This document shows, in pieces, positions 6,081-57,430 of a DNA stretch of 64,000 nt. The stretch covers positions 56,651,768 through 56,715,767 of the forward strand of contig CM067360.1 in the NCBI GenBank assembly GCA_034401795.1, written 5' to 3'. The notes below the pieces were generated by a model. That model saw only the letters and a program-made list of their open reading frames with translations, made no database searches and was not told the DNA's origin. The translations under genes and the position numbers were made by a program. The DNA is from Chaetoderma sp. LZ-2023a (Eukaryota; Mollusca; Caudofoveata; Chaetodermatida; Chaetodermatidae). Each line of letters opens with the position of its first letter. Position 1 is the stretch's first letter.

Positions 6081-6258
6081 TTAACCCTTTAACCATCATA
6101 TCAGCCAAAAATGGCTTCTGCAGTCGTCTTGAGAAATATCCATTTGCAGAACAAGAGGCTTTTTTTTAAATTTACCACTGGAATGACTGGCTCAGTTATC
6201 TTGGCCTGTAAATGGACATTTTCTATGAGAAATTTTCTTTACCAAATTTGAGTGTTAA
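6081..6258. repeat. Family A palindromic MITE, internally deleted
   Basis: It starts TTAACCCTTTAACCATCA and ends at GAGTGTTAAC. The second central arm after GACTGGCTCAGTTATC is missing, so the hairpin is shortened. Confidence 0.8.
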
Positions 6259-6260
6259 CT

Positions 6261-6495
6261 TTTTAACCATCAAATTTGTACAAGAAAATTTAAATTTTCT
6301 CGTAGAAAATGTTCATTTGCAGAACAAGAAGACTATTTTTGAAAATTTACCACTGGAATGACTGGCTCAGTTATAACCGAGTCAGTCATTCCAGTGGTAA
6401 ATTTTTAAAAATAGTCTTCTCTTGGTCTGGAAATGGACATTTCTCAAGACCACAAGAGAATCAGTTTCTGGCTGATATGAGGGTTAAAGGGTTAC
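6261..6495. repeat. Family A palindromic MITE, near full length
   Basis: Near-complete copy that starts TTTTTAACCATCAAATTTG and ends GGTTAAAGGGTTA. The central palindrome is GGAATGACTGGCTCAGTTAT followed by its complement. It abuts the copy ending at 6258. Confidence 0.85.
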
Positions 6496-6715
6496 ACACA
6501 TAATATAGGTCTGAAGGGAAATGGGAAAAGGTCAGACAGTAACCTTCTGAATTGTATGTCTTTGGTCAATTTACAATACAATAAACATTGAGCATTTTGA
6601 AACTAATTTGATTGGGCAAATTACTTTCAACCTATTCGACACCTTACCTTGAAATTGAGATTCCGATACTTCAATGGTTAAAATGTTAAAATCTATACAA
6701 ACACGCATACAAATG

Positions 6716-6822
6716 GGCAGTTTTGCTAAAAATTGGTGGGGGCTTTGCTATAAATGGGCAGGGCATAGCTATAAATGAGCTGTTCTTTGCTATAAATGGG
6801 TGGGGCATAGCTAGAAATTCCT
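6716..6822. repeat. Short degenerate tandem repeat
   Basis: Four to five units are built on TTTGCTATAAATGGG(C/T)(A/G)GGGC with AGCTATAAATG variants. Confidence 0.6.
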
Positions 6823-6935
6823 CTCTTCAATCTTCATGACCTGATGATTGAGTTTCAAGAGTGTGTTCTGAAGGCATATTCCTCTAGTATACTGACTGAC
6901 AACAACGTCATCTACATATAAGTCAGCATTGTAGT

Positions 6936-7161
6936 TTAACCCTTTAACATCCAGTTTTTTCAAGAAAATTTAAATTTATTCATAGAAAATCTCTATTTGC
7001 AGATCAAGAGAAGACTATTTTAACACTGGACTGACAGGATCAGTTGAGCCAGACAGTCCATTGATAAATTATCAAAAATAGTATTCACTTGGTCTGCAAA
7101 TGGACATTTTTCAGGATCACTACAGAAGCCGTTTTGGCAGGCTTGAGTGTTATAGGGTTAA
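6936..7161. repeat. Family A palindromic MITE
   Basis: TTAACCCTTTAACATCCAG at the left and AGTGTTATAGGGTTAA at the right enclose diverged arms. TTAA is present at both ends. Confidence 0.8.
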
Positions 7162-7257
7162 TAGCCTGTTTTCATAGATCTCTGCATTCCTGGCACAATA
7201 TTTCACATAATTAGCCATGATGGATAGTACATGCACACAAGTTTGAAAAATTCTAAT

Positions 7258-7440
7258 CTTTTAATGGTCACTCAATCACTCCAAAATCACCCTCTGCAAT
7301 GGTCTTCAGGAATGTCCATACCATATGCAGCAATTTTTGAAATTTTATCTCTTGAATGACTGGCCAGTCACTCCAGTAGCAAATTCTTCAAAATAGTCTT
7401 TCTTCTCTTGGCCTAAGTTCAATGAGGAGAAACTTCAAGT
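7258..7440. repeat. Family A palindromic MITE, degenerate copy
   Basis: It carries GGTCTTCAGGAATGTCCAT, TTGAATGACTGGCCAGTCAC and a CTTCTCTTGGCCT arm. It lacks TTAA termini. Confidence 0.55.
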
Positions 7441-7640
7441 TTTCATAAGCAATCTTGACAATGAATGAGGTAAAATAAATATTGCAACAAATGCCCATCA
7501 AATTATTTCCCAACTAATCATCAGGATATTGGCTGCATTTGCAACCGCCAACCAATCTCCAGTCACTCTCCTACCTGTGACATGAACAATCAGAATACAT
7601 GCATCTAACATCAAGACTACCACATAAATCTCTCACTGGA

Positions 7641-7852
7641 TTAACCCTTTAATGGTCAAATTTGGTCAGGAAAATATAAAAATCTGATTACTGAATGTCC
7701 ATTTGCAGGCCAAAAGAAGAGTATTTTTTTTAATTTATCACTGGAATGACTGGCTCGTTTATGGAGCCAGTCATTCCAGTGGTAAATTTTAAAAAATACT
7801 CTTGGCCTGCACATGGACATTTCTCAAGACCACTTGACCATTAAAGCGTTAA
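7641..7852. repeat. Family A palindromic MITE next to a host exon
   Basis: The element begins TTAACCCTTTAATGGTCAAA and ends TTAAAGCGTTAA. It is complete and has a long central hairpin. Its right end lies 25 bp from the last base of the FERM-protein exon at 7878-7975, just inside the intron after that exon's splice donor. Confidence 0.85.
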
Positions 7853-7877
7853 TCATGGTCACTGATAATGCACTCAC

Positions 7878-7975
7878 CTTGAATGATGTAGGATGCTAGT
7901 ACATTGGCATCAGTGGGCGTACACTGCAGGCGGCCATGTTGTAAATCACGTCTCAGTTGTAGGAACAAGAAATAC
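7878..7975 (-). CDS. FERM-domain protein (FRMD3/FRMD5-like), exon 5
   Basis: On the minus strand this 98-bp exon follows an acceptor reading ...CTATCTTGCAG (7976 upward) and ends at a consensus donor, CAAG|gtgagt. It starts with one base completing an Arg codon and ends in phase 1. The 32 codons read [18 protein letters not shown] followed by ...[11 protein letters not shown]. This is the hallmark segment at the start of the FERM central (F2) lobe, matching the family pattern RY..FLQ.KRDL.HGRL.C....A.L..Y.(V/I)Q. Proteins of this family link membrane proteins to the cortical cytoskeleton. The residue pattern is closest to FRMD3/FRMD5 as I know them; other band 4.1-type FERM proteins remain possible. 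The next exon is not recognisable inside the window. Confidence 0.85.
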
Positions 7976-8161
7976 CTGCAAGATAGCATCAAATAGCAGA
8001 CCATTAAATACCTGTACCTGGATTGTTAATACTAATACACTACTCTGATGTTTATGCTAGTCCTCGCATGATATAAATCGTAATTATGCCTCCTTGAGAG
8101 ACCACCTGCCTTCTGGAGCCAAAGCATGCTGGTTTATTACTACGGCTACTTGCTTTACCAT
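7976..8161. other. Intron of the FERM gene
   Basis: Unique-looking intron sequence upstream (in gene sense) of exon 5, with no further exon seen. Confidence 0.5.
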
Positions 8162-8385
8162 TTAACCCTCAAGCCAGCGAAAAACAGCTTCTGCACTGGT
8201 CACGGAAAATGTCTATTTGCAGATCAAGAAGGCTATTTTTTTCATTTATCAGTGGAATGACTGGTGCGAGAAGCGAGCCAGTCATTCAAGTGATAAATTT
8301 TCATAAATAATCTTACCTTGATCAGCAAATGGTCACTTTCTAAAAGAAAATTAAATTTTTCTTGACCAAATCTGCAATGTAATAA
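8162..8385. repeat. Family A palindromic MITE, diverged
   Basis: It starts TTAACCCTCAAGCCAGC and ends in the TTAAATTTTTCTTGACCAAA arm. The centre is GGAATGACTGG...CCAGTCATTC. Confidence 0.75.
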
Positions 8386-8718: not shown

Positions 8719-8800
8719 ACACAGGGACAGGTGCTTATTCGAATGGCTGATACAAGATGATATGCATTAAATATCAGCGCTACATGTTACCTCTGCCAAT

Positions 8801-9085: not shown

Positions 9086-9319
9086 TTAACCCTTTATGGC
9101 CCAAGATTGGACAAGAAAAACTAGAATCATGACCAGCAAATGTCCATTTGCAGGATAAGAGAAGACTAGTTTTAAAAAATTTAACAATGCAATGACTGGC
9201 TCAGTTATGGAATCAGTCATTCCACTGGTAAATGTTCAAAAATAGTCTCTTAGCATACATATATATGATCCTTCCTCAAGACCCGCGCAGAAGGCATTTC
9301 TGGTTGGCTTCTCCGTTAA
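9086..9319. repeat. Family A palindromic MITE, diverged
   Basis: TTAACCCTTTATGGCC at the left, CTCCGTTAA at the right, and the centre GCAATGACTGGCTCAGTTAT. Confidence 0.75.
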
Positions 9320-9461: not shown

Positions 9462-9704
9462 TTAACCCTTTAACTTTCAAATTTCTTCAAGAAAACTTAA
9501 ATTTTCTCATAGAAAATGTCCATTTGCAGACCAAGAAATTATTTTTGAAAATTTACCACTTGACAAGCTTTCCAGGCTCGGTTATCAAGCCGGTCATTTC
9601 AGCGTTAAATTTTCTAAAATAGTCTTCTCTTGGTCTGCAAATGGACATTTCTCAAGACCACTGCATAGGCCGTTTTGGGCCGTCTAGAGTGTTAAACATG
9701 TTAA
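9462..9704. repeat. Family A palindromic MITE
   Basis: TTAACCCTTTAACTTTCAAA at the left, GAGTGTTAAACATGTTAA at the right, and well-preserved CATTTGCAGACCAAGA / TCTTGGTCTGCAAATG arms. It lies about 190 bp from the downstream edge of the FERM exon at 9897-9975. Confidence 0.85.
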
Positions 9705-10269: not shown

Positions 10270-10769
10270 NNNNNNNNNNNNNNNNNNNNNNNNNNNNNNN
10301 NNNNNNNNNNNNNNNNNNNNNNNNNNNNNNNNNNNNNNNNNNNNNNNNNNNNNNNNNNNNNNNNNNNNNNNNNNNNNNNNNNNNNNNNNNNNNNNNNNNN
10401 NNNNNNNNNNNNNNNNNNNNNNNNNNNNNNNNNNNNNNNNNNNNNNNNNNNNNNNNNNNNNNNNNNNNNNNNNNNNNNNNNNNNNNNNNNNNNNNNNNNN
10501 NNNNNNNNNNNNNNNNNNNNNNNNNNNNNNNNNNNNNNNNNNNNNNNNNNNNNNNNNNNNNNNNNNNNNNNNNNNNNNNNNNNNNNNNNNNNNNNNNNNN
10601 NNNNNNNNNNNNNNNNNNNNNNNNNNNNNNNNNNNNNNNNNNNNNNNNNNNNNNNNNNNNNNNNNNNNNNNNNNNNNNNNNNNNNNNNNNNNNNNNNNNN
10701 NNNNNNNNNNNNNNNNNNNNNNNNNNNNNNNNNNNNNNNNNNNNNNNNNNNNNNNNNNNNNNNNNNNNN
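10270..10769. other. Assembly gap (500 N)
   Basis: A run of exactly 500 N, the usual placeholder for a scaffold gap of unknown size. It follows a TG/GGTG-rich stretch (10160-10265). It lies between FERM exons 2 and 4 and probably hides a short exon of the gene. Confidence 0.95.
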
Positions 10770-11113
10770 AAATATTGTCGATTTTTAGTCTATCATAGGA
10801 ACAGTTTAAAATGTGGTGTCTGTTAGAGCAATAGTCAGCTGCTTGTTGCTGGCTTTACCAACCAGCAGTTGTGCTGAGCGTTGATTTAGTTAATGACAGA
10901 GAGGTGTATTAATAGTTTCATATTCAGGAAGGTTCCTCAATGGGTTTCATATTCAGCATGGGTCTGCTATCATGTCTATTGGTTTCCGAACAGGGTTCGC
11001 CAATTGGTTTTATACTTAGCATGATTCAATGTCTCTTTCATTCCGTGAACACCATCAACACATATTATCGATAACTGTATGAAATGTGTCAAGCCTTACA
11101 GGTATTAACTCAC
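10770..11113. other. Intron of the FERM gene
   Basis: I looked on the minus strand for the missing exon (expected to encode the HWL...K region of the F1 lobe) and did not find it. Loose repeats of GGTTTCATATTCAG / GGTTTTATACTTAG occur at 10912-11030. Confidence 0.4.
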
Positions 11114-11290: not shown

Positions 11291-11526
11291 TTAAAATATT
11301 TAACACTCAAATTTGTTCAAGAAAATTTTAATTTTCTCATAGAAAATTTCCATTTGCAGACCAAGGCTTTTTTTGAAAATTTACAACTGGAATGACTGGC
11401 TCGGTTCTCGAGCCAGCCATTCCAGTCGTAAAATTTTCAAAAATAGGCCTCTCTTGGTCTGCAAATGGACATCTCTCAAGACCACTGCAGAAGCCATCTT
11501 TAGCTGATATGAGTGTTAACGGGTTA
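11291..11526. repeat. Family A palindromic MITE, near full length
   Basis: It begins TTTAACACTCAAATTTGTTC and ends GAGTGTTAACGGGTTA, with the central palindrome GGCTCGGTTCTCGAGCC. It sits in the 33-kb first intron, 73 bp upstream (gene sense) of exon 2. Confidence 0.85.
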
Positions 11527-12504: not shown

Positions 12505-13658
12505 CTATCGTCTCAAAACAGCTAAAGCGAGTGGATTGGCAAAGTCTGACACATCCCTCATATAGTAATCCGTGAAAGAGGACTCACAGTGCCATTGTGC
12601 AACAGCCATGATGTCCTTAAATGGAACACCAATGTAAAAAAGGGCGGAAGGGGCGGCTATTCCTCTAACATCGTGCCCTTGCGCATTGTACTTGGTGCCC
12701 AGTCGTAATCTCACGGGTAGTCTGAATGCATTCGACTACCAAATGAGAGATAGAATCCACGGATGCGGCGCCATATGGCTCCTTATGGCACATCCACAGA
12801 TGTCTATCAATCGAACGTAACGAGTCTGTCCGTATTGTACTTAGTCAAAGCACGGACTGGGCACCAGACACTGGCATCATGATCAAACCTACTTAGTTTC
12901 GGTATAACGATCGGTTTGCCGGGATATCTCAAAGATTGAATCTTTGACATAAACTCTTCTCTTGGCAGTAGATGCAGACCCTCTCTGGAGACAATAAATC
13001 GGCCCCTCTCTGCTGAAAGTGCATGGATCACACTGCGCCTTCTAGCTGAGGAAGCTGCCAATAGAAAGACCGCCTTTAGAGTCAAATGCTTTAGACTAGC
13101 CGAACGCAACGGTTCGAAAGGGTGCTTGGCCAGTACATTAAGCACTAAAGATAGACTCCAGGCTGGAATGACTACCGGTTGTCTCGGTCGGAGATTGCTC
13201 ATTCCCTTCACCATCACACTCAACTGGGCCACCTCTGGACTATCCCTGTTGGCTAGACAAGGGATAACTGATGTCAAAGCTGACTTGTATCCAGCAATTG
13301 TGACAGGAGCTACTCCTGAAAAGAACAGCTCCCAGAGAAAGTCTGCTATTTGCTGAATAGTGGAATGGAAGGTAACAATACCCTTTTCCTCACACCAGTC
13401 TGCAAATCCGTTAACCTTGTTGTTATATGACTTGAAGGTTGACCTCCCTTTCGCAGCTGCGATGAAATCTGCAGCATGTCGAGAAAAGCCCTCCGACGTC
13501 GAACGTTGTTTGACAACCACGCAGTCAATAACATTTTGGGACGCGCGTGTAGGAAGCGTCCCTTGGCCTGGGAGATTATGTGCGGAATCTCGGGTAACTG
13601 CACTGGATTTTCCACCCGCAGACCTCGAAGATCTGTGAACCATGCCCTGCTGGGCCAA
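12505..13658 (-). pseudogene. DIRS copy 1 tyrosine recombinase, frameshifted
   Basis: The main part (13658-12807) holds the N-terminal SAM-like domain (STFKSYNNKVNGFADW) and the first catalytic Arg region (ASSARRRSVIHALS). After a frame break near 12715-12807, a second open part (12714-12505) carries the box II H-x-x-R motif (HDVRG), the AQWH segment and the tyrosine region (FTDYYMRDV), then ends LAVLRR. All catalytic parts are present but in two frames, so this copy is dead. The enzyme would join the DIRS cDNA circle into target DNA. Confidence 0.85.
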
Positions 13659-13664
13659 ATGGCG

Positions 13665-15509
13665 CTATAGCAGGACCAGGCACGGTTCCTCCCTGATCTT
13701 CACCAATATCTTCGGTAGAAGAATGGTGGGTGGGTACGCGTAAGCGTGCATCCCTCTCCAGCTTAACGCCAGAGCGTCTGTATCGACGGCACTAGGATCT
13801 GTAATCGGCGAGACATAAGTCATGATTTGAGCATTTTCCCTTGTGGCGAACAAGTCCACGTTGGGTTTGCCCCAATGCTCAAAGATCCTGTGAAGAACTG
13901 GAGGGTTGAGAGACCATTCTGTTGGCAGAATTCTCTGTCTGCGAGACAAAGCATCCGCCAGAATGTTCAATCGCCCAGGAATATGAGCTGCTTTAAAAAC
14001 AACCGAGTAATTCCTGCACCATTGAATCAAGTGCCACACTTAGATACATAGTGTGGGTGACTTGGTCTCGCCGTGGCGATTTCTTTATGATACTACTGTC
14101 GAGTTGTCCGACCGTATCAATATCGCCTTGCCCCTGACTTTTGGAAGAAACCGTTTCCAATGCCAGTTCCACTGCCATCATATCCAACAGATTGATATGC
14201 AGCTGGCTCTTGTGGAGAGTCCATGTGCCCGAGACCTGGTGTTCTCCCAGGTAGGGCCCCCATCCCTCCAGCGATGCATCCGTGTACACGGACAGCTGGG
14301 GGTGGGGTAGGTGCAGCGAAAAACTCCTACTAGGAGATTCTGACGCTTTTTCCCACCATACAAGGTGCGACATTATTGGCTCCAAAACTGGCACCAGTTT
14401 TGACAAGGGTTCTGTTCTCTGTTTCCACAGAGACATCAGATACAACTGGATAGGTCTTCACATCAGAGCAGCGTCCAGGATTACCTGCTCCTTGGAGACC
14501 ATCATGCCCATCATCTGAAGAAACCGTCTCGCCTGAATGTGGTTTCCCAATGGAAAACTCTTGAGGATGGCTAACAGAGACACCACTCTGGGCTCTGACG
14601 GGTAAACCATGCCCTCCTCGAGATCGAATCGTATCCCTAAATAAACGAACTGTTGAGTGGGTGTCAACTCGGATTTCTCCTTGTTGACTATCCAGCCTAG
14701 ATCTGAAAGTAACTTCAGAGTCAGAGCAGTATCCACCTCTAACTTGGCTGGCGTGACTGCCTTGATAAGCCAATCATCCATGTAGGTGTGAAGCGCCACG
14801 TTCTTCTCTCTTCTAAGAAACGCTGTCACCACAAGGACCACTCTGGTGAAAACCCCTTGGAGCTGTCGACAGGCCGAATGGGAGGATTTAAACTCCCATA
14901 CTAGATTCTGAAACGCAACTCTCAGAAACCTGTGACAACTCCTGTTCATAGGAATGTGGGAACATGCATCTCTCAGATCGATCGATACACACCACACCCC
15001 CTTCCTCAATCCTGCCATTACCGACCTCAGAGTTTCCATCTGAAACCGAGGCGTAAGGATAAACCAATTCAATGGCCTGAGATTGAGTACGCGTCTCCAT
15101 CCCCCTGTGCTCTTGGGGACAAGGAACATGTTTGAATAGAAGCCTGGAGTGTTCCGGTTTGCTGGTTTATTGCTCCCTTCAGAAGCAAACCTGACACTTC
15201 GGTTTTTTTAATAGCTTCTAACTTGTCTGGTCCCGTTGAACGGGTGTCCAGACAGGTGCCAAAGACACATTCTGTGGTGGAAAGTCCCACCACTCTGGTA
15301 TGTATCCCTGGGATAACCATCCCAGGACCAGACTGTCTGACGTCACACCTCTCCAAACCTCGATGAAAACGCATGAGCCTTCCACCCACTATAGACGCCT
15401 CAACGCCTAATGGGGGTGTCTGGCTCGCGTATCCGCTCTCCCCCCCCCTCCTCTCTCTTGACGAGAGAGAGAACCATATTGGTCTTGGCTTGGCCGGTCT
15501 AACTGGCAC
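13665..15509 (-). pseudogene. DIRS copy 1 RT/RNase H/methyltransferase-like polyprotein, broken
   Basis: Pieces in several frames match copy 2. 15129-14458 contains RT motif A (degenerate: LRDACSHIPM) and motif C YMDD. 14445-13993 has the start of RNase H (VYTDASLEGWG). 14039-13665 has PGRLNILADALSRR and the DLFATRENAQ domain that follows RNase H in DIRS elements. At least four frameshifts separate these parts. Confidence 0.85.
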
Positions 15510-15746
15510 CGCTGTTCCTGTCGCACAGGTGTGGTCCAGGCAGATGCGAAGGGAGCCTTCGTACCCTCGGGTACGATCCGTCCCTTCTGTCCGCCCTTTG
15601 AGGACTTACCCCTCCCCTTCCCGCCTCTCGGGCGATCAGGAGCAACATTGGGGAGGGTAGAGGGCCTCACAACCTTCTTGGCTTTCTTCGCCGAGGCGGC
15701 TGAGAAAACCCAGCAGAAAACAGAAGCAGCACTATGCTTTAGGCAT

Positions 15747-17617
15747 TCACCTTGCTTTTTGTCTGTTTCTTGAAGGTTGCCCGGTCAGCAGCCTGACTAC
15801 AGTCAGATAAACCGGCAACCCATTCTGCACAATGCTGGCCGTGTCCTCCAAGATGGCCAGCGCCTGGCCACCAAAGATGCTAAGGCCTGTCAGGGGCGTC
15901 CCAAGAAGACGCTCCCTGACGGCAGTAGCTGGACGCATATGGTCAAGGACCATCTGCCTCCTGGACATAGTCACACGCGCCGGCACCCTTGCCAATGCGT
16001 CCATAGACAGCACCAGGCCGTCATTAATGCACGAATGCGCCACAGGTGGCACAGGGTGGCCTGCCCCCACTTCAGCCCACACCGACTGAAGAAGACGATA
16101 AGAGTGGTTGACAGCACTCAGTGCTGTCCTCACACCCCCATCACACAGGGACAGGACTTCATTATGGTGTACCTGAGCTTTGTCCACCAGTGCCGGGGCA
16201 GGGCCACCCGCTCCAGCACTCTGGACACCCAGTACCCAGCGGTCATCCTCGGTGACCGACGGGACAACACCATACCTGTCGTATTCCCCCCGTGGAATAC
16301 GACCCCTCGCCCGCACCTCCCTGGAGGCCGCAAGAAGCTGGCCCTTGTTCATGCGTTGTTTGCTATAAATAGCATCAAGCAACACCATAAACCATGGATC
16401 CAGTCCAACAGACTGGATCAGGGCTGCGGGCAAGATCCCCGTCCTAATCGATGCAACCGATGGACGGGGTACATCCTCCTCGGCCGTGGTCGAAACCACA
16501 GACGGGTCCACCCTGGCTAGCCAAGCCAGAGCCTCAGACCAATCCGTCTCCGAGGAGGACACTCCCGTGAACACGTCACCCGTTGACATGTTCACGGCCC
16601 TACCAGCAACGGCCTCCCGGCTAGGAGCGATTGCTGATATGCCAGCAACTGCGGTACCGTACGGTTCCGCCGCCACCCCATGGAACACACCAGTCCATGG
16701 AGTAGGCCTGCATGGAAAACCGTGCGGTCCCGTAGCAGTTGAGGAACCGTGGCCAAACACGGGCGCCAACGGCACCCCATGTCTGACCGCCGGACCAGGC
16801 GAGATAGGTGAGTACCATGCCTGGCCGGCCACACCCGTCACCATGTTGGTTGGTGGCAAACCAACCATCACGGGACCAGTGCCCGGTACCGGAGTGGCCT
16901 CAACCACGGGCGGAGCCGCTGCTTGCGCCAGGCCAGACAGATGGAGGACGGTTCCGTCAGGACGGAATCGACATCCATGCTCTCCACCCGCGGCATCACA
17001 GGCCGCAGCAACCTCTCCTCCTCTGCCTCCTCATCTTCAGACCCCGAAGAGTCGTCACTAGACAAGGAAAACCATGGAGCCGTCCTAGCGGACGGCTCCC
17101 ATGCCCGACGGACCGGCCACCGCTACTGGACCACCCGGAGGTTGCCGCAGAGAGACAGAACCCATCAGGCCGGAGCCCGACGGGACTGCCAGGGGGCCGT
17201 ACAAGACGGCTCCCTCGGTGGCCAGTCCAGAACCCTGTCCAAGGACAGGGTCCGAATCAAACATGGGAAGAGACTGCCTTACAACTTTTGGCAGCAGGGA
17301 CGACACCAGCGTGGGCAGAACGCTATGCAAGAAACCTTGCCTAGCCGGACCAAACCACGCCGGCGGTGCCATCTCCGCCACCTCCGGTTGCAGACGTGGA
17401 ACGCCCCCACGGGCCGAAACGGACGCCCCACGATTTACTTTCGGACCGCCTGACCCCACGTCAGACCCTGCCAAGTCCTTCTGGCAAGGAACTTAAGCAT
17501 CATATCGACCGACCACACAGCGCAAACGTTACACCTACTGTCAAGACTACACTTAGTACAGTGGAAACAGACCTGGTCCTTGCATAGAACCCGTACAATA
17601 TGTGGCACTCGACACAT
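15747..17617 (-). pseudogene. DIRS copy 1 gag-like protein, broken
   Basis: It starts with a cysteine cluster (CFHCTKCSLDSRCNVC, ATG at 17615-17617). A frameshift follows, then a Pro/Gly/Ser-rich stretch (17474-17085), an acidic DDSSGSEDEEAEEE patch (17065 downwards) and a longer open part (16907-15747) with the conserved central domain (DPWFMVLLDAIYSKQ) and a basic C-terminal end. It corresponds piece by piece to the gag of copy 2. Confidence 0.8.
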
Positions 17618-19522: not shown

Positions 19523-19763
19523 TTAACCCTTTAACACTCATATCGGCCAAAAAATGCTTCTGCAGTGGTCTTGAGAAATGTCCATTTGCAGACCAACAGA
19601 AGCCTATTTTTGAAAATTTACCACTGGAATGACTGGCTCGATAACAGAGCCAGTCATTCCAGTGATAAATTTTCAAAAATTGTCTTCTCTTGGTCTGTAA
19701 ATGGACATTTTCTATGAGAAAATTTAAATTTTCTTGAACAAATTCAAGGCTTTAATGGGTTAA
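19523..19763. repeat. Family A palindromic MITE, full length
   Basis: TTAACCCTTTAACACTCATA at the left and TTTAATGGGTTAA at the right. The central palindrome GGCTCGATAACAGAGCC sits inside nearly perfect 70-bp arms. The asymmetric ends are swapped relative to the copy at 34151, so this copy is in the opposite orientation. Confidence 0.9.
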
Positions 19764-20014: not shown

Positions 20015-20214
20015 TTAACCCTTTAGCCCTTGAATTTGTTCAAGAAAATTTAATTTTTCTCATAGAAAATGTCTATTTGGAGACCAAGAACACTATTTTT
20101 GGAAATTTAGCACTGGAATGATTTCAAAAATAGTCTTCTCTTGGTTTGCAAATAGACATTTCTCAAGACCACTGCAGAAGCCGTTTTTGGCTGATATAAG
20201 TGTTAAAGGGTTAA
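20015..20214. repeat. Family A palindromic MITE with shortened centre
   Basis: TTAACCCTTTAGCCCTTGAA at the left and GTGTTAAAGGGTTAA at the right. The central GACTGGCTC hairpin is lost (GGAATGATTTCAAAAATAG), leaving single-stranded space between the arms. Confidence 0.85.
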
Positions 20215-20590: not shown

Positions 20591-20790
20591 TTAATCCTTT
20601 ACGTCAAGATTGACCAAGAAATAAGAATATTTCTTCGCTGAAAGTACAGACTCCGTTTACAGGTCAAGAAGGCTTGTTTGAAAATTTGCAACTGGAATGA
20701 CTGGCTCAAGCCAGTAATTTCTGTTTTAAGTTTTTCACAAATAGCTTTCTTGGCCAGCAGGCCAGCATACTTTGGCATGTCTGGAAAATG
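20591..20790. repeat. Family A palindromic MITE, diverged
   Basis: TTAATCCTTTACGTCAAG start, GGAATGACTGGCTCAAGCCAG centre and a decayed right arm. Confidence 0.6.
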
Positions 20791-20819: not shown

Positions 20820-21054
20820 TTAAGCCTTTAACCATCGAATTTGTTCACAAAAATTTCAATTTTCTCCTAGAAAATGTTCATTTGTGGACCAAGAAGACAA
20901 TTTTTGAAAATTTACCACTGGAATGACTGGCTCGGTTATCGACCAAGTCATTCCAGTGGTACATTTTAAAATGTAGTCTTCTCTTCAGCCGCAAATGGAC
21001 ATTTCTTAAGCCCGCTGCAGAGGCCATTTTTGGCTGATATGAGTGTGAAAGTGT
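20820..21054. repeat. Family A palindromic MITE
   Basis: TTAAGCCTTTAACCATCGAA at the left, GAGTGTGAAAGTGTTTA at the right, and the central GGCTCGGTTATCGACC. Confidence 0.8.
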
Positions 21055-21239
21055 TTACTGTGTTCCGATTTCGTATCCAAATTATCTACAGAGTTTAGTA
21101 AATATAAAACATTTTGAACAGGAGCAATCAGAGATTGCAGACACTCAACCTCCCATTTTTGTCAAACTAGGTTTTCAGATTTTTTACTGTTCAGATTTTT
21201 CCAGATTTTCTGGATCCGGCCCAAAGTTTAGTAATCCTA

Positions 21240-23051: not shown

Positions 23052-24090
23052 CTAACGGAACACCATTGTAAAGGCGGTCGAGGCGGCTATTCCTCTAACA
23101 TCGTGTGCCCTTACGCCCTGCACCCGGTGCCCAGTCGCCATCTCGTGAGTAGTCTGAATGCATTCGACCACCCAACGAGAGATAGTATCCATGGATGCGG
23201 CGCCATAAGGCTTTTTATGGCAGATCCACAGATGTCTATCGTTCGACCGTAACGAGTCAGTCCGTTTCTTGTACTTAGTCAAAGCACGGACCGGGCACCA
23301 GACACTGGCATCACGATCAAACCTAGTTAACTTCGGTATAATGATCGGTTTGCCGGGATATCTCAAAGATTGGTTCTTTGACATAAACTCTTCTCTTGGC
23401 AGAAGCCGCAGACCTTCTCCAGAAACAATAAATCGGTTCCTCTCTGCCGAAAGCGCATGGATCTCACTGCGCCTTCTAGCTGAGGAAGCTGCCAATAGAA
23501 AGACCGCCTTTAGAGTCAAATGCTTTAGACTAGCCGAACGCAACGGTTTGAAAGGGTGCTTGGCCAGTACATTAAGCACTAAAGATAGACTCCAGGCTGG
23601 AATGACTACCGGTTGTCTCGGGCGGAGATTGCTCATTCCCTTCAACATCACATTTAACTGGGCCACCTCTGGACTATCCCTGTTGGCTAGACAAGGGATA
23701 ACTGATGCCAAAGCTGACTTGTATCCAGCAACTGTGACGGGAGCTAGTCCTGCAAAGAACAGCTCACAGAGAAAGTCTGCTATTTGCTGAATAGTGGATT
23801 GAAAGGTATCAATACCCTTTTCTTCACACCAGTCTGCAAATCTGTTAACCTTGTTGTTATATGACTTGAAGGTTGACCTCCTTCTCGCAGCCGCGATGAA
23901 ATCAGCAGCCTGTCGAGAAAAGCCTTCCGACGTGGAACGTTGTTTGACAACATCCACGCAGTCAATTTGAACATTTCGGGACGCTCGTGTAGGAAGCGTC
24001 CCTTGGCCTGGGAGATTATGTTCGGAATCTCGGGCAACTGCACAGGATTTTCCACCAGCAGATCTAGAAGATCCGTGAACCACGCCCTGC
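23052..24090 (-). pseudogene. DIRS copy 2 tyrosine recombinase, C-terminally frameshifted
   Basis: The recombinase overlaps the end of the RT frame, as is common in DIRS elements. Visible parts are the N-terminal domain (STFKSYNNKVNRFADW), the first catalytic Arg region (ASSARRRSEIHALS) and the H-x-x-R box (AHDVRGIAAS). A 4-bp deletion relative to copy 1 near 23070 shifts the frame, and translation stops at 23052 before the nucleophilic tyrosine (FTDYYMRDV-like sequence remains in another frame near 23000). The start is uncertain because the same frame stays open upstream as a shadow of RT; I place it near the SSRSAGGK segment. Confidence 0.85.
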
Positions 24091-25825: not shown

Positions 25826-25992
25826 AGACGCCTCGACGTCTAACGGAGTTGTCGGCTCGCAGTCCGCCCCCCCTCTTTCTTAACGAGAGAGAGTGAGAAC
25901 CATTTCGTTCTAGGCACGACGGGTATAACTGGCACCGCTGTTCCTGTCGCACAGGCGCGGTCCAGGCGGATATGAAGGGAGCTTGCGTACCC

Positions 25993-27054
25993 TCAGGTAC
26001 GCTTCGGCCCCCTCTGTCCGCCCTTTGAGGCCTTACCCTTATCCTTCCCCTTCCCGCCTCTAGGGTGGTCAGGAGCAACATTGGGGAGGGTAGGCGCCTC
26101 TACAACCTTCCTGGGCTTCTTCGCCGGGGGCGGCTCCGAGAACCCAGCTGAAACAGAAGTCGCAACAGGCCTGGCTTTCGCCTTGCCCTTATGCTTCTTC
26201 TGCTTCTTTGAAGGCTGTCCCGTTAGCGGTTTGCCCACAGCCCCTAGTGCGTGCGCTTGCCGCACTAGCTCTAGCTGTAGATTTACCGCTAACCGATTCT
26301 GCGCGATACTGGCGGTGTCCTCTAAGGTGGCCCGCGCTTGGCCACCAAAGATGCTAGGCCCTGTCAGGGGCGTCCCAAGAAGACGCTCCCTGACTGCCGT
26401 AGCCGGACGCATATGGTCAATGACCATTTGCCTCCTGGACTTCGTCACTCGCGCTTGCACCCTTGCCAATGCGTCCATTGACAGCACCAAGCCGTCATTA
26501 ACACATGAGAGCGCCACAGGTGGCACAGGGTGGCCTGCCCCCGCTTCAGCACACACCGACTGAAGGAGACGATAAGAGTGATTGACAGCGCTCATCGCTG
26601 CCCTCACACCCTCATCGCATAGGGACAGGACTTCTTCCTGGTGTACCTGGGACTTATCCACTAGGGCCGGACCGGGGCCACCCGACCCGACACTCTGGAC
26701 TCCCAGTGCCCATCGGTCATCCTCCGTGACCGACGGGACTACACCATACCTGTCGTATTCACCCCGCGGAATACGACATCTTGCCCGCACCTCCCTGGAG
26801 GCCGCAGGGAGCTGACCCTTGGTCATTAGTTGTTTGCTATAAATAGCATCCAACAAATCTATGAACCGTGGATCCAGTCCCACTGACTGGATCCGGGCCG
26901 CGGGTAAAATCCCCGTCCTAATCGACGCAACCGACGGACGGGGCGCATCTTCATCGGCCGTGGCCGAAACCACAGACGGGTCAACCCTGGCTAGCCACGC
27001 CAGAGCATCTGACCAATCTACCTCCGATGAAGACACCCCCGCAAACACGTCACC
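25993..27054 (-). pseudogene. DIRS copy 2 gag-like protein, C-terminal part (split by hAT)
   Basis: Open from the hAT insertion to the stop at 25993-25995. It contains the conserved central domain (DPRFIDLLDAIYSKQ), a helical region rich in VNHSYRLLQSV-type segments and a basic tail (KKQKKHKGKAKAR, PPAKKPRKVVE) that looks like a nuclear localisation signal or nucleic-acid-binding end. The upstream part is at 28595-29600. Confidence 0.8.
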
Positions 27055-32324: not shown

Positions 32325-32492
32325 AGTGAATGCTCATTTGCAGGCCAAAAGAAGACTATTCGCTTTCAATTAGTTAAATCGAGACAGTCATTCAAGTCGT
32401 AAATTTTCAAAGAGATTTATCTTGCCCTGAAAATGGACACTTATTAAGGCCACTGCAGATGCAGTTCGGCCGGCTTGACCATGATCGGGTTG
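32325..32492. repeat. Family A palindromic MITE, decayed
   Basis: TCATTTGCAGGCCAAAAGAA, GACAGTCATTCAAGTCGTAA and an AAATGGACACTTATTAAGG arm are still visible. Confidence 0.6.
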
Positions 32493-33716: not shown

Positions 33717-33869
33717 GTTGAATGCTTTGAAACTAAATTGACTCGGTAACCGAGCCAGTCATTCTAGTGGTAAAACTTCAAAAATATTCTTCTCTCAGCC
33801 TTTCAAATAGCCATGTCTGAAGACGAATGCAAAGTTGTTCTTTGGTCAGTTTGACCATTAAAGGGTTAA
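33717..33869. repeat. Chimeric MITE: family B left arm joined to family A right half
   Basis: The first 26 bp (GTTGAATGCTTTGAAACTAA...) match the outer arm of family B. From 33743 (CTCGGTAACCGAGCCAGTC) to the TTAAAGGGTTAA end it is the right half of family A. Confidence 0.65.
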
Positions 33870-34150: not shown

Positions 34151-34386
34151 TTAACCCTTTAACCCTCGAATTTGTGCAAGAAAATTTTAATTTTCTCATA
34201 AAAAGTGTCCATTTGCAGACCAAGAGACTATTTTTGAAAATTGACCACTGGAATGACTGGCTCGGTTATCGAGCCAGTCATTCCAGTGGTAAATCTTCAA
34301 AAATAGTCTTCTCTTGGTCTGCAAATGGACATTTCTCAAGACCACCGAAGAAGCCGTTTTTGGCTGATACGAGTGTTAAAGGGTTA
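34151..34386. repeat. Family A palindromic MITE, near-consensus copy
   Basis: TTAACCCTTTAACCCTCGAA at the left and GAGTGTTAAAGGGTTAA at the right. Arms of about 75 bp are almost perfectly complementary around GGCTCGGTTATCGAGCC. It is a good reference copy for the family. Confidence 0.92.
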
Positions 34387-34401
34387 ATAAGATATGGACT
34401 G

Positions 34402-34594
34402 TTAACACTTTAATGGCCAAGCTGCTCAAAACTGGCCTCTATAGTGGTGTTGAGGAATGGCCATTTGTAGGCAAATGGAATGACTACTGAATCGATTAGT
34501 GAACCAGACATTTTAATGGGAAATTTTCAGAAATAGTCTCCACTTGGAAAGCAAATATATGTAGACATTTTCTTGAACATACTTGACCATTAAC
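34402..34594. repeat. Family A palindromic MITE, diverged
   Basis: TTAACACTTTAATGGCCAAG start and a TTGACCATTAA end with much-changed arms. It lies 16 bp from the previous copy. Confidence 0.65.
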
Positions 34595-36770: not shown

Positions 36771-36898
36771 TTTATTTGTTTAGCCTCAGTGTGCGACTGA
36801 ATACATGTATCACTGATGTTTTTCTCATGAGTCACTGAGACTGATATATTGAACGACTCATTGAGTGACCGAAAGTTTTTGGCTGGAATCAGTCTACT

Positions 36899-37131
36899 TA
36901 ACACTTTAACAAGTGCTCAAACCTGACAAAAATTACCTCTAGTGATCTTGAGAAATGTCCATTTGCATACCATGCGAAATCTATCTTTCAAAATTTATGA
37001 CTGGAATGACTAACTGAGCCAGTCATTCCAGTGGTAAATTTTCAAAAGGAGTCTTCTCTTAGTCTGCAAATGGACATTTTCTATGAGAAAATTGAGATTT
37101 TCTTGAACAAATTCAACGGTTAAAGTGTTAA
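36899..37131. repeat. Family A palindromic MITE
   Basis: TTAACACTTTAACAAGTGCT at the left and GGTTAAAGTGTTAA at the right. The centre GACTAACTGAGCCAGTC is diverged. Confidence 0.8.
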
Positions 37132-37677: not shown

Positions 37678-37887
37678 CCCTTACTTAAGCTTTCTCTAAA
37701 AAAAATGTCCATTTGCGGACCAAGAATCTATTTTTGAAAATTTACCACTGGAATGACTGGCTCGGTTATCGAGCCAGTCATTCCAGTGTTAAATTTTCAA
37801 AAATAGTCTTCTCTTGGTCTGCAAATGGGCACTTCCCAAAATCACAGATAAAGCCATTTTTGGCTGTTTTGAGGCTTAAAGGCTTAA
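37674..37887. repeat. Family A palindromic MITE
   Basis: TTAACCCTTACTTAAGC at the left and GAGGCTTAAAGGCTTAA at the right, with a nearly perfect centre (GGCTCGGTTATCGAGCC). Confidence 0.85.
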
Positions 37888-38214: not shown

Positions 38215-38460
38215 GATAGTTCTTAAATTCCAAAACCGTCCTCTGCAATGGTCCTGAGGAATGTTCATTTGAATGCCAAGAGAAGACCGACTATCATGAC
38301 TATTAATAATCATCTAACACTGGAATCAATGCCTCGATAGCTGACCAGTCTTTTCCGGTGGTAAATTTTCAGAAACAGATTTCTCTTGACATGTAAATGG
38401 ATATATTCATTAAGCAAAAATCAGAATTTTCGACGGAAATCTTGACCCTTACATGGTAAA
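38215..38460. repeat. Family A palindromic MITE, decayed
   Basis: GGTCCTGAGGAATGTTCATT, CACTGGAATCAATGCCTCGA and GGTGGTAAATTTTCAGAAAC are still recognisable. Confidence 0.6.
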
Positions 38461-39084: not shown

Positions 39085-39418
39085 TTTTCCTAAAGCTTAG
39101 GGTTGCCTTGAAAATGAGATACGGGGAATTCATCGGTGAAAGCATAACTCCACTATATGATAATTCATAATTGGTATCAATTTTGGATGCATACATTATG
39201 ATTTTGCCACATTCTAAAACGGCACTTTAGCTGTAAAAAACATAGTTTCACAAATTCAAACTACCCTTAGGCTTTCTTCTAGTATTAAAACCTTGCAATT
39301 AACCTAATTTTGACATCAATGTGATAATGGTTAACTCATAATAATGGCCAGAAGAGAACAATTGAGTCATGGACTCAGACCAATATTATATGTTCTACTA
39401 TCTGGACAAGTCTTGAAC

Positions 39419-39652
39419 TCTTTAACACTCAAATTTGTTCATGAAAATTTCAATTTTCTCATAAAAAATGTCCATTTGCAGACCAAGAGAAGACTATTTT
39501 TGAAAATTTACCACTGGAATGACTGGCTCGGTTATTGAGCCAGTCATTCCAGTGGTAAATTGTCAAAAATAGTCTTCTCTTGGCCTGCAAATGGACATTT
39601 CTCAAGACCACAGTAGAAGCTGTTTTGGCCGATATGAGAGTTAAAGGGTTAA
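39419..39652. repeat. Family A palindromic MITE, near-consensus copy
   Basis: CTTTAACACTCAAATTTGTT at the left, GAGAGTTAAAGGGTTAA at the right, and long matching arms around GGCTCGGTTATTGAGCC. Confidence 0.9.
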
Positions 39653-39744: not shown

Positions 39745-39945
39745 CAAGCCGGCCAAAATTCTTTTTTTACAATGATCGTAAGAATTGTCTATTTACAGGC
39801 CAGGAGAATGATCAGTATGAAAACATGAAGCCAGTCATTCCAGTGATATATTTTCAAATAGAGCTTTCTCCGGGCTTGCAAAAATAGATATTGAATTTAG
39901 GAAATATTTTTTTCGTTGTGAAAAAAATGTGATGATTAAATGGTT
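39745..39945. repeat. Family A palindromic MITE, decayed
   Basis: ATTGTCTATTTACAGGCCAG, AAGCCAGTCATTCCAGTG and a GATTAAATGGTTAA end. Confidence 0.55.
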
Positions 39946-41224: not shown

Positions 41225-41417
41225 TGAAAAATTTCGCCCGGAAAGGCTGACTCTGGAACATTTACTACTGAGTACTGATATAACTCAGACTGGCTCAGTT
41301 ATTGAGCCTGTCATTCTAGCAGTAAATTTTCAGAAATTATATTTGGCTCTTGGACGGCAAATGGATATTCCAAGACCACGTCTGCATCGGTCGGTTTGGT
41401 TAATTAAAGGGTTAAAG
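41225..41417. repeat. Family A palindromic MITE, decayed
   Basis: GACTGGCTCAGTTATTGAGC and an AATTAAAGGGTTAA end remain. The left arm is poorly conserved. Confidence 0.6.
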
Positions 41418-41872: not shown

Positions 41873-42149
41873 TTAACTCGTTAACCCTTAGACCTTTAAG
41901 ACTCAAATTTGTGCAAGAAAATTTCAAATTTGTGCAAGAAAATTTCAAATTTTTCTTCATACAAAATGTCCATTTGCAGACCAAGAGAACGTGTTTTTTA
42001 AATTTACCATTGGAATGATTGGCTTGGTTATCGAGCCAGTCATTCCATTGTTAAATTTTCAAAAAATAGTTTTTTCTTGGTCTGCAAATGGACATTTCTC
42101 AAGACCACTACAGAAGCCGTTTTTGGCTGATATAATGATTAACGAGTTA
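41873..42149. repeat. Family A palindromic MITE with altered ends
   Basis: The left end reads TTAACTCGTTAACCC and the right GATTAACGAGTTAG, giving a different terminal repeat. An internal 22-bp duplication of TTTGTGCAAGAAAATTTCAA lies at 41908-41951. Confidence 0.8.
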
Positions 42150-42257: not shown

Positions 42258-42428
42258 TGTAACACTCAAACTGGCACAAAACGCCTTCTGCAGTGGTCTT
42301 GGGAAATGTCCATAAATTCGCATACCAAGTTGAAGAGCAGGCAACTTTTGATAAATTATCGCTGGAATGACAGCCTCATTAACCGAGCCTGTCATTCCAG
42401 TGAAAAATTGTCAAAATTGAGAAAATGC
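42258..42428. repeat. Family A palindromic MITE, diverged
   Basis: GCAGTGGTCTTGGGAAATGT and CGCTGGAATGACAGCCTCAT with its complement are visible. Confidence 0.65.
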
Positions 42429-42454: not shown

Positions 42455-42660
42455 TTACCCTTTTAACCCTCATGCAAAAAATGGTTTCAGCAGTGTTCTT
42501 GAGAAATGTCCATTTGCAGATCGAGAACAGACTATTTTTGAAAAATTTACCACTGGAATGATTGGCTCGAGAACTGAGCCACTCATTCTAGTGGTAAATT
42601 TTCAAAAATTGGCTTCTCTTGGTCTGCAAATGGACATTTTCTATTAGAAAAAATTTGAAA
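42455..42660. repeat. Family A palindromic MITE
   Basis: CCCTTTTAACCCTCATGC at the left. Arms CATTTGCAGATCGAGA / TCTTGGTCTGCAAATG surround GATTGGCTCGAGAACTGAGC. Confidence 0.8.
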
Positions 42661-42845
42661 TGTGATAAGATAAGATCAATATAACACTGGAGAACCATAA
42701 TAAAGTCTAACTCTTCGTAAGGACCACCTCTATATATCTAAGACAAGTTATGAACTCAGAAACTTGATGACTGGCCAGAGACCACACCTCTCAATAAATG
42801 CAATATTTCATTGGTCCCCAGAGTAGCCTGTATAGACGAAAGCAA

Positions 42846-43124: not shown

Positions 43125-43345
43125 ATTTAACCCCTTAGTTGTCAAGCTGTTAAAAAATTTCTAACTTGGTCTTGAGTCCTGAATGTTCATAAATTTGCTG
43201 GCAAAGAGAAGAATATATTTGTGAATTTACTGCAAAGGTAATAGAGAAAATAACAGAGAAAGTAACTGCAATGGCAAATTTTCCAAAATTGTCTTCTTGG
43301 CTGGTAAATTGACTAAGCAAGTTTTGTGATTCTCTTGACCAATCG
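43125..43345. repeat. Family A palindromic MITE, decayed
   Basis: TTAACCCCTTAGTTGTCAAG start and GGCAAATTTTCCAAAATTGT right arm. The centre is lost. Confidence 0.55.
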
Positions 43346-43407: not shown

Positions 43408-43646
43408 TTAACCCTTTAACCCTCGAGTTTGTTCAATAAAATTTCAATTTTCTCATAGAACATGTCCTTTTGCAGACCAAGAGACGACTATTTTTGAAAA
43501 TCCACCACTGGAATGACTGGCTCGGTTATCGAGCCAGTCATTCCAGTGGTAGATTTTCAAAATAGTTTTCTCTTGGTCTGCAAATGGACATTTCTTGAGA
43601 CCACTGCAGAAGCCGTCTTTGGCTGATAGGAGTGTTAAAGGGTTAA
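43408..43646. repeat. Family A palindromic MITE, near-consensus copy
   Basis: TTAACCCTTTAACCCTCGAG at the left and GTGTTAAAGGGTTAA at the right. The GGCTCGGTTATCGAGCC centre is perfect. It lies 520 bp from the start exon of the FERM gene. Confidence 0.9.
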
Positions 43647-54552: not shown

Positions 54553-54567
54553 GTTTTTACTAGGACT

Positions 54568-54645
54568 GGGCGCGTGTACACGTGTACACGTTCAGGTGCG
54601 TGTACACGGTTACAAAAATCGTAACCGTGTACACAAAATTTTTTT
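54568..54645. repeat. hAT subterminal palindromes
   Basis: GTGTACACGTGTACAC is followed by a perfect hairpin GTGTACACGGTTAC - 7 nt - GTAACCGTGTACAC. Subterminal repeats of this sort bind hAT transposase. Confidence 0.8.
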
Positions 54646-54768
54646 AAAAATAAAATCTACATATCTATGTGAAGTAAGTAAGATAACCCTCAAAGAAAAT
54701 CTACATATTTTTTGACAAATTAATTCCCCGAATTTGCCGCCACACTCTATCTGTCAATAATTTCTGAA

Positions 54769-55007
54769 TTAACCCTTTAATGCTCAAGCGTCTCAAAACA
54801 CGGCTCCTGCAGTGATCTTGGGAAATATCAATTTACAGACCAAGAGGAAACAGGTTTTGTCTTTTAAATTGTACCACTGGAATGACTGGCTCAATAACCG
54901 AGCCAGTCATTGCTACGGTAAATTTTCAAAAACAGTCATCTCCTGGTCTGTTCATGGGGAGTTTTATGAGAAAATTCCAATTTTCTTGAACGACTTTGAG
55001 AGTATGT
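54769..55007. repeat. Family A palindromic MITE, diverged
   Basis: TTAACCCTTTAATGCTCAAG at the left and GGCTCAATAACCGAGCC at the centre. The right arm is decayed. Confidence 0.8.
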
Positions 55008-55009
55008 AT

Positions 55010-56715
55010 GAGAAACATCCTACAGCTGCAATCAGTCCTTCTTCGCTTTTTCCCACTGTGTCTTGTCTTCAGCCGAAATCCTTAGCTTCCTCAGATCCAT
55101 TCCTGACTTGATTGTACCCAGTCCTGCTTTCTTGAGATCACCTCGTAGCACGCTTAACAGATTTATATAATAACGCCCTCTCCTGGCTTTGTATTTGCTG
55201 GCTCCGTGTAGAGTGTGCTGGTGTCTCTTCTAGCATCCTTAGCACATGGCCAAACATGGACCATCTTTGCTGGGCGATTTTTACAGACAGCGGCGATGTA
55301 TTACACATCTTGTATAGTACATCGTTGGAAATTATGATGTCTGGTCATCGGTGTCCAGTGATGGTGTGTAGGTGTTTGCGGTGGCAGGCATCGAGTTTGT
55401 CTAGAGCTGCCTTTGGAGCTGCCCAGCTGTTACAGTTATACAGCATCAAGGATACGCAGGTTGCATTGTATAAAGGTAGCCTCTTTATCAAGGGCATCTT
55501 TGATCTACGAATCCATAGCTTCCAGAAGGACTGGAAAGCTATGTTCCCCATGACGCAGCGTGCAGAAATGTCAGCAGTACTGCAAAGCAGTGAGCCCAGG
55601 ATTTTACTTTTCCTCCATGGTTCGCCGCCACGAAGTGGGTCGTCATTTTCTATAGTTTTTTGTCGATAGGTATATGTGGCTGAACTCTGTTTTGGATTCA
55701 TTCATAAAGAGATTCTCAATTTTTAGTTTGCTTGCAGCTATTGGGAGAAGTTCGTCAAGGGGTTTCTTTTCCTCGTCTACGAAGTCCACATCGTCGGCAT
55801 ATTCCATCTCTAGCAGCATGCCCAGTATTAACACTGGGGGGTTTGGTCTTGTGGAATTTTCCCGCACATATTTCAATGCGGCAGCAAGGTAGCAGGTGAA
55901 AAGCACCGGTGATAGACCATCTCCCTGTAGGGAGCCGATTGATGTATCAAACTCACTGACTTCACTGACTTGACTCGTATGCTCAGCTTGGTATCTGCAA
56001 GCAGTAGTGTCACTAGTCGTAGCTCATCTTCATTGCAACTGGCCCGACATAGTACATCTAGGATCTTTGAGCGTTTAATTGTGTCGAAGGCTTGTGACAT
56101 GTCAATGCCCATTTTGTGGAAGTCCCAGTGTTTGGACATGACTATCGACACAAGCATGCGTTGAGCCCATACAATGTCTGCGCAGCTGCGTCCATGTTTG
56201 AAACCACTTTGACATGATCCAGTGAACTAATCGATCTTGTCTCGGATGTGGCATAGAGTAACATTGGATAGGATTTTCCGTATGCTGTTGAGGAGCACAA
56301 TGGGCCGCTGATTGTCGGGGGGGGGGGGGGGGGGGGGGGGCTCAGGTGGCTTCATGGGCTTGAGTAGTGCGATAAGGGTGCTTTGGCCTACACCCTCGAT
56401 GAGAAGGTGGTGCATAAAAGCTGAATTGGTTATGTGCGTGATCGGTTTTGAGATAATGTCACTTGCATATTTGAATAGTTCATTGCTCATGCCATCAGGT
56501 CCAGATGCACGTCCATTTTTCAGGGCTTTAAGCACCTTCTCAACTTCTGCTGTTTTATTTGGTGTTAGTAATGGCCTGGTGTCTCCTGAGAATTGGTGCA
56601 AGGGCTCATCATCGTTGTCAGTGAGCTGTTCTTTGAACCATTCTCAGATCGCCTCGGCTTTTCCATGGTCAGTCCCGATAAAGTGTCCTCCAAATTTGAG
56701 AGTCAACGAGGTTAA
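55010..56715 (-). mobile_element. 5'-truncated LINE inside the hAT element
   Basis: Minus-strand remnant of a non-LTR retrotransposon. 56601-56227 carries the RT start (LKNGRASGPDGMSNELFKYA, then the NQRPIVLLNSIRKILS block). 56157-55873 has motif A (IDMSQAFDTIKRSK). 55906-55643 has motif C (EYADDVDFVDEE). 55701-55345 is the thumb and beyond (LYNATCVSLMLYNCNSWA). The C-terminus (RWSMFGHVLRM) lies near 55250. At least four frame breaks are present. A poly-G/poly-C run at 56319-56340 has expanded a proline stretch inside the RT. Confidence 0.82.
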
Positions 56716-56911
56716 TTAATTATCCACACATAGCAGCAACGCCAGCACACCAGTATTCCTTTGAATAACCAACACCCATTGTCAGAACAGATAGGTGTGA
56801 ATTACTGTTCAAGCGTGATCTTATCAACATAGATTATCGCCATGAATGTTGTGACATGTGGCACTTATCTAAGCTCACAGTGGACTGTTTGCTGCCAACC
56901 GTGTGTCAACT

Positions 56912-57125
56912 AATTAAAGGCCAAGCCAGCCAAAATGGCCTCTATAGTGGTCTTGAAGAATATGTCATTATTGAAAGCCTATTCGCATGTCGAGAGAAGA
57001 CACCGAGCGACCCAGCCATCCCAGTGGTAAATTTTCAAAATGTTGTATTACATTTCCCTGCAGATTGACAATCAGTAGTCAGATTTCGATTTTTCTTAGC
57101 CAATCTTGACCATCAAAGGGTGAAA
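56912..57125. repeat. Family A palindromic MITE, decayed
   Basis: TTAAAGGCCAAGCCAGC start, GTGGTCTTGAAGAATATGTC and CCCAGTGGTAAATTTTCAAA. Confidence 0.6.
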
Positions 57126-57204
57126 ACACTGTTGCTTGATGTTGATCTGTCCCGAAAATACGAATTTTTGTCAAAAGCTGGTAAACAAGCTTTAGCCCTC
57201 TTGT

Positions 57205-57430
57205 GTCAACGTAACCCTATAATGGTCAGGCCAGCCAAAATGGCTTCGGCAATGGTCTCTATGTATTTCCCTTTGCAAGCAAAGAGAAGATTAGTTTGGT
57301 AAATTTATCACTGCAATGCGTGGCTCGGTAACCGAGCGACTCATTTCAGTTGTACTGTTTAAAAATATTTTTCTCTTGGACCCTGATCAAGCAAAAGTTA
57401 GGATTTTCCTTTTCGTTTTAATGTTAAAGA
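57205..57430. repeat. Family A palindromic MITE, decayed
   Basis: GTAACCCTATAATGGTCAGG start and GGCTCGGTAACCGAGC centre. A further, weaker copy may occupy 57434-57600. Confidence 0.6.

Follow-up and report, generated by a model that had tools for sequence, protein, structure and literature searches.

The DNA analysed here, hereafter the window, is a stretch of 64,000 nucleotides from Chaetoderma sp. LZ-2023a (contig CM067360.1 of assembly GCA_034401795.1; C2:56651768-56715767), and it is crowded with copies of one short palindromic element, which we call family A. An initial annotation had proposed a dense, TTAA-flanked family of miniature inverted-repeat transposable elements (MITEs), with about 30 copies in 64 kb, and our counts bear this out. 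A scan with TTAACCCTTTAAC at up to 2 mismatches returned 38 matches against 2.15 expected (maximum of 100 shuffles, 5), and blastn of the window with the family consensus (E<=1e-5) revealed 34 clusters that cover 6137 bp, or 9.6% of the bases. Once the cluster at 6081-6494 is divided into two, the window holds 35 copies or fragments (Table 1), of which 20 are at least 178 bp long and the remainder are fragments. A few lie beyond the range annotated at first: the clusters at 1104, 2494, and 5378 are upstream of it, and the fragment at 57502 is just past its end. The copies also differ in age, as had been suggested. The three singled out as near consensus (34151, 43408, and 39419, which starts at 39416 in our analysis) are 93.7-95.4% identical to it, and the copy at 19523 joins them.

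Anatomy and fold of family A

We aligned the 30 best-scoring copies (L039-L068 among our fetched loci, L039 being window copy 34151). At least three pairs are duplicated loci judging by their flanks (L042/L043, L051/L065, and L059/L060), so that ~27 copies are independent. The oriented consensus measures 240 bp; since 8 of these 30 copies could not be oriented unambiguously by our rule and were left as found, the few low-agreement columns may partly stem from that. The inverted ends agree over ~17-21 bp, TTAA included, and are accompanied by two subterminal segments of ~30 bp each that are not complementary to one another. The arms lie between columns 55 and 187, with all 63 consensus pairs complementary, and enclose the centre GGCTCGATAACCGAGCC. 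Within the window, the centre GGCTCGGTTATCGAGCC occurs at 10 places with no more than 2 mismatches, and its complement at 5. The arms had been described as nearly perfect complements of about 75 bp; the complementarity holds, and the unbroken complement in the consensus is shorter (~63 bp). Similarly, the proposal that nearly the whole element forms one hairpin is partly right: the RNA fold of copy 34151 is very strong (-131.7 kcal/mol vs -49.0 +/- 4.5 for shuffles, z -18.5), but the subterminal segments are unlike each other, and each folds into its own small hairpin in that copy. Across 60 unique full-length copies, the two arms each match the consensus at an identity of 0.93, compared with 0.86-0.88 for the ends and subterminal segments.

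Termini and target sites

In the 30-copy alignment, homology is bounded by TTAA on both sides, and the columns outside agree mostly at 0.3-0.5, with single ones reaching at most 0.8; the family consensus therefore does not extend past the ends first proposed. These ends read TTAA-CCCTTTAAC...CTCG and carry a terminal CC[C/T]T motif. Inverted ends of ~12-19 bp are expected of a piggyBac-superfamily MITE, and the ~17-21 bp of family A, TTAA counted, accord with this. TTAA together with CC[C/T]T termini is presented as the hallmark of piggyBac-type MITEs in the accessible part of PMC2872659, and the initial assignment to this type on the basis of TTAA and CCC/GGG termini agrees with an alignment that ends at TTAA-CCCT.

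A TTAA target would equally suit a MITE moved by a Kolobok transposase, and Kolobok elements have been reported in bivalves (PMC10294476, in the part available). The predominant MITEs at TTAA in Xenopus, the T2-MITEs, are of this kind and resemble family A in their target. However, Kolobok elements have RR beside TTAA, which is AG in each of the ten frog elements for which both ends were identified, and T2-MITE termini are AGGRR (PMC6004289, as far as its accessible text goes), whereas the 30-copy alignment of family A has CCC at this place. On the evidence of these termini, we regard a Kolobok origin as very unlikely.

We then compared 67 full-length copies (60 unique) with the sequence of the window and fetched loci, where two independent nested insertions proved informative. 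At L051 (and its duplicate L065, the same event) and at L005/L006/L007, a family A copy lies inside an older family A copy of 71-74% identity. When the flanks are joined with one TTAA and aligned to the consensus, the junction is gapless in both cases, and the scores for one TTAA exceed those for two (121 vs 111 at L051; 127 vs 121 at L005/L006/L007); the joined-flank alignment then extends across the rest of the host copy. Both nested insertions thus fit the expectation of empty sites with a single TTAA. At another copy, that of 41881-42145 in the window, the flanks if joined would form the near-palindrome TTAACTCG-TTAA-CGAGTTA.

Given these termini and TTAA on both sides of the insertions, we consider it highly probable that family A is a family of non-autonomous piggyBac-type DNA transposons (MITEs), moved by a transposase of the piggyBac superfamily supplied from elsewhere in the genome. 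Such a transposase would recognise the inverted ends, and probably the subterminal palindromes too, excise the element, and reinsert it at TTAA, with one TTAA left on each side; family A would thereby have multiplied to some 200,000 copies and fragments, most of which have since decayed. For piggyBac itself, the accessible part of PMC11707139 describes a palindromic subterminal sequence bound by two cysteine-rich domains. By analogy, the subterminal palindromes of family A may be transposase binding sites as well.

piggyBac transposases and a candidate partner

At 240 bp, the family A consensus leaves no room for a transposase gene, and none had been noticed in the window. Among the 119 PF13843 (piggyBac transposase) matches listed for the genome, which contains at least that many, none falls in the window; 116 of 427 first-look transposase candidates were scored, and a badly decayed one in the window could be missed. 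Flanks were read for 52 of the 119 listed matches, namely 30 (L009-L038), a further 20 on the upstream side (L076-L095), and two via L071/L072 and L096/L097. Among the 20 upstream-side loci, L079, L088, and L093 were read downstream too. The element ends found are TTAACCCTTAGCACTCGG for pB-A, TTAACACGTTGACTGCC for pB-B, TTAACCCTTTAGATCCC and TTAACCCTTTCGATCCC for pB-C (L079/L088), TTAACTCATTCAGCCCC for pB-D, TTAACCTTCAAGTGACC for pB-E, and TTAACCCTTATCCTGC for the element at L017. For several transposase loci, no element end was recognised in the flanks read.

The initial annotation had called for an autonomous piggyBac with the same ends, and, of the elements found, pB-A comes nearest, its ends being similar but not identical. 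Copies of pB-A at L018 and L025 share 99.3% identity over 3144 bp; their similarity ceases at TTAA on either side, and their coordinates give a length of 3.41 kb. The open reading frame (ORF) is open over 582 aa and matches PF13843 at E 2.3e-87. Its product is related in sequence to the transposases of piggyBat (PDB 9c0f, E 4.1e-72) and piggyBac (6x67), and both of these have the same TTAA target; unlike family A, these elements are autonomous. The similarity of the pB-A left end to family A end 1 was equalled by a fraction of 0.0003 of 4000 sequences composed of TTAACCC plus random bases (the best of 16 comparisons). In addition, the right end of one pB-A copy (L070) is TTAACCCTTTAGCACTC, which agrees with family A at 16 of 17 bases.

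Several observations run counter to the piggyBac reading. At family A end 2, the left ends of pB-A and pB-C score equally well (0.006), and nothing stands out for the right end of pB-A in L069 (0.03 and 0.22). An exact autonomous partner would be expected to show TTAACCCTTTAACACTCG on both sides, and no autonomous element with exactly the ends of family A occurs among the 52 of 119 listed matches with flanks covered. Past the ends, the two have nothing in common: the family A consensus has no match in L018, L025, L069, or L070, so that family A did not arise from pB-A by simple deletion. Finally, the putative empty site of the window copy at 20015-20214 differs by 5 bases and is not a clean single TTAA, although this comparison used repeat relatives only 73-75% identical and is ambiguous. 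The exact partner of family A may be extinct or may be among the remaining 67 listed matches. The identity of the mobilising transposase, like the total copy number, we infer rather than observe. Family A is ordinary in kind and remarkable in its number and in the co-evolution of its arms; the initial annotation read its class rightly, and pB-A is a candidate relative of the transposase that moved it.

Two other elements were considered as partners and rejected. The left end of L093 reads TTAACCCTTTAAC, but its right flanks (L098 and L033) show the pB-D end, which places a pB-D element at the inner TTAA of one end of a family A copy. pB-C, considered for a like reason, has two ends of its own. 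For both pB-D (L093/L098) and pB-C (L079/L099), the site occupied is the inner TTAA belonging to an end of family A, and family A-like sequence flanks the element left and right; pB-E (L080) lies at or beside such a site, less exactly and with only one side visible. That three piggyBac families are found there may be mere chance, because family A copies are so many.

Longer derivatives bearing family A ends were considered as well and rejected: of 139 near-exact ends in the window and fetched loci, 123 continue into family A (overlapping loci being counted repeatedly). The other 16 comprise nine ends of a second MITE family (by reading), two piggyBac insertions into family A ends, one pB-A end (L070), and four that were left unplaced. 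This second MITE family is ~200-210 bp long, with ends such as TTAACCCTTTCAC, and is seen at L002:841-1053, L008:2681-2890, L046:1908-2108, and perhaps at window position 1356.

Genome-wide number and clustering

A search of the 2,438,752,110-base genome found 51,661 exact 13-bp ends (26,201 + 25,460) vs 111 for the reversed control (57 + 54), and 96,329 copies of the exact arm 18-mer CACTGGAATGACTGGCTC (48,410 + 47,919) vs 0 + 0 for its control. The window contains 10 exact 13-mers and 17 exact 18-mers, vs 1.4 and 2.5 predicted from the genome mean, i.e., ~sevenfold more. In 60 fetched loci (171,438 bases), we counted 18 family A clusters, which correspond to 1.3% of bases and 105 per Mb; this sample was drawn around transposases and transposon ends, is non-random, and includes a few near-duplicates (e.g., L097/L098 and L020/L021). 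The resulting estimates are ~256,000 copies from the 60-locus sample, ~181,000 from the 13-mer, and ~198,000 from the 18-mer, the latter two being scaled by 35 window copies per 10 exact 13-mers or 17 exact 18-mers. Collectively, we estimate that the genome holds 180,000-260,000 copies or fragments of family A, provided that copies elsewhere have decayed to the extent observed in the window or the sample, and that the window is enriched about 5-7x over the genome.

Exact ends are also clustered on chromosome C1. Within its first 3.85 Mb, which represent only a small portion of that chromosome, the 100 listed ends (92 after pair merging) have a variance/mean ratio of 3.9 in 64-kb bins, vs a mean of 1.0 and a maximum of 2.0 in 5000 randomised simulations.

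Local density might arise from tandem or self-nested insertion, in which the two outer and two inner TTAA sites of each copy attract the next one. Neighbouring copies with one common TTAA do occur, at window positions 6255-6258, at L047 and L066, and, by flank similarity, at L064, and the three piggyBac elements at or beside inner TTAA sites would be in keeping with such attraction. However, exact tail-to-head junctions of family A number merely 11 genome-wide, against 51,661 exact ends, a count that covers exact junctions and not decayed ones. In addition, TTAA is only 1.4x as dense in the window as in the sample (7266 vs 5061 per Mb) and accounts for little of the 5-7x enrichment. We consider self-nesting a very unlikely source of the density and rejected it on the junction count.

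Covariation of the hairpin arms

Covariation between the arms was assessed in 99 copies that span both arms, from among 181 non-overlapping matches (the others being too short or contained). Both members of a pair were changed in 144 cells vs 95.8 expected (ratio, 1.50), and 107 of these 144 were complementary. Sliding the pairing by 1-9 columns lowered the ratio to 0.78-1.08, and redealing the second arms among similarly diverged copies gave 57.2 +/- 6.5 complementary cells (maximum of 300, 75) vs the 107 observed. Since some common changes stem from duplicated loci, the test was rerun on 94 copies without near-duplicates. It again revealed an excess, with 98 complementary cells vs 50.8 +/- 6.4 permuted (maximum, 73), 47 distinct matched changes vs 30.4 +/- 4.0 permuted (maximum, 45), and a ratio of 1.47 at the true pairing vs 0.84-1.07 when slid.

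Matched changes found in a single copy show no clear excess (25 vs 24.1 +/- 4.3 in the 99 copies; 29 vs 21.5 +/- 4.1 in the 94 copies), and the covariation therefore resides mainly in changes common to several copies. In other words, subfamily founders were palindromic in differing ways, and the signal is mainly between subfamilies; shared descent is part of it, and the copies were aligned to one consensus. Ongoing homogenisation of the arms within single copies was rejected on the same count of private changes.

The same data bear on the notion that the hairpin is a host functional element, a source of small RNA or double-stranded RNA kept by selection, with its MITE origin secondary. Its very strong fold and covarying arms would be expected of such an element, but Rfam gives no match in the window at the gathering threshold, and paired complementary changes confined to a single copy are in no clear excess. 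We give this notion scarcely any credence. For the piggyBac-type MITE, the arms of source elements may have been kept complementary by one arm being copied from the other. We tentatively suggest, as a possibility that is more doubtful than probable, that the long hairpin helps the family spread, one arm being copied onto the other in successive source lineages while ordinary copies decay freely. Such copying might occur by template switch or hairpin-mediated repair during excision or replication, and would give rise to subfamilies that differ by matched double changes.

Comparison with known MITEs

The closest parallels that we found are the CMITE families of the coral Acropora, which, according to the accessible part of PMC2872659, share with family A the TTAA target and CCCTTT... 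ends (family II, CCCTTTAAGCCCTA), have an interior with no obvious similarity to related autonomous piggyBac elements past the ends, and likewise occur in tandem arrays. In contrast to family A, with its 240 bp, long palindromic arms, and estimated copy number, CMITEs are ~100 bp long, with ~1600 copies estimated in A. millepora. We found no published report of family A in the literature searched, including MITE papers that contain TTAACCCTTT; a report under a species or Repbase name could be missed.

By our estimate, family A makes up ~1% of a 2.4-Gb genome in which a candidate relative of its transposase, with its reading frame still open, persists. It is thus suited to asking what drives MITE numbers, be it matched ends, subterminal palindromes, or a long palindrome, and its subfamily-structured copies permit a direct test of arm rewriting during transposition.

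Family A copies and other elements in the window

Table 1. Copies and fragments of family A in the window (identity by blastn to the consensus)
Feature	Position	Strand	Identity and remarks
Fragment (arms)	1104..1226	+	82.9%
Decayed	2494..2644	+	73.4%
Near full length	5378..5572	+	81.6%
Shortened in palindrome; TTAA 6255-6258 common to next copy	6081..6258		strand not assigned
Full length	6255..6494	-	89.3%
Full length, TTAA both ends	6936..7161	-	80.8%
Fragment	7281..7414	+	69.5%
Copy; end-like sequence to 7852	7641..7834	-	83.5%
Copy	8154..8371	+	80.1%
Fragment	9135..9306	-	77.7%
Near full length	9462..9696	-	85.3%
Near full length	11299..11526	-	89.7%
Full length, near consensus, TTAA both ends	19523..19763	+	93.8%
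Shortened, both ends kept, within another repeat	20015..20214	-	77.9%
Fragment	20652..20759	+	74.2%
Full length	20820..21055	-	87.8%
Fragment	32329..32466	-	80.2% over 91 bp
Half copy, one end	33739..33869	-	76.5%
Full length, near consensus, TTAA both ends	34151..34387	-	95.4%; fold z -18.5
Older relative	34427..34556	+	75.3% over 81 bp
Full length, TTAA both ends	36898..37131	+	82.8%
Lacking one end	37691..37887	-	87.0%
Older relative	38230..38431	+	71.9%
Full length, near consensus	39416..39652	-	93.7%
Arm fragment	39829..39882	+	81.5% over 54 bp
Fragment	41288..41379	-	79.8%
Copy; TTAA ends ~41881 and ~42145	41893..42132	-	89.6% over 211 bp
Fragment	42260..42416	+	77.1%
Lacking one end	42455..42661	+	86.3%
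Fragment	43193..43297	+	71.0%
Full length, near consensus, TTAA both ends	43408..43646	-	94.2%
Near full length	54769..55003	+	79.1%
Arm fragment	57008..57040	+	90.9% over 33 bp
Fragment	57232..57379	+	78.0%
Arm fragment	57502..57547	+	85.1% over 47 bp

Outside family A, the window has a run of 500 N at ~10270-10770, an assembly gap or masked stretch that shows up in the translations as consecutive X. Two GC-rich blocks (12807-17492 and 23052-29651) contain long ORFs and look by reading like DIRS-type retrotransposons, with stretches like reverse transcriptase and tyrosine recombinase. Since no family A copy lies in either block, both may have arrived after the burst of MITE insertion. Further ORFs resemble, also by reading, Penelope-like (4241-4804), RTE-like (55345-56643), and Gypsy-like (59156-61672) retroelements.

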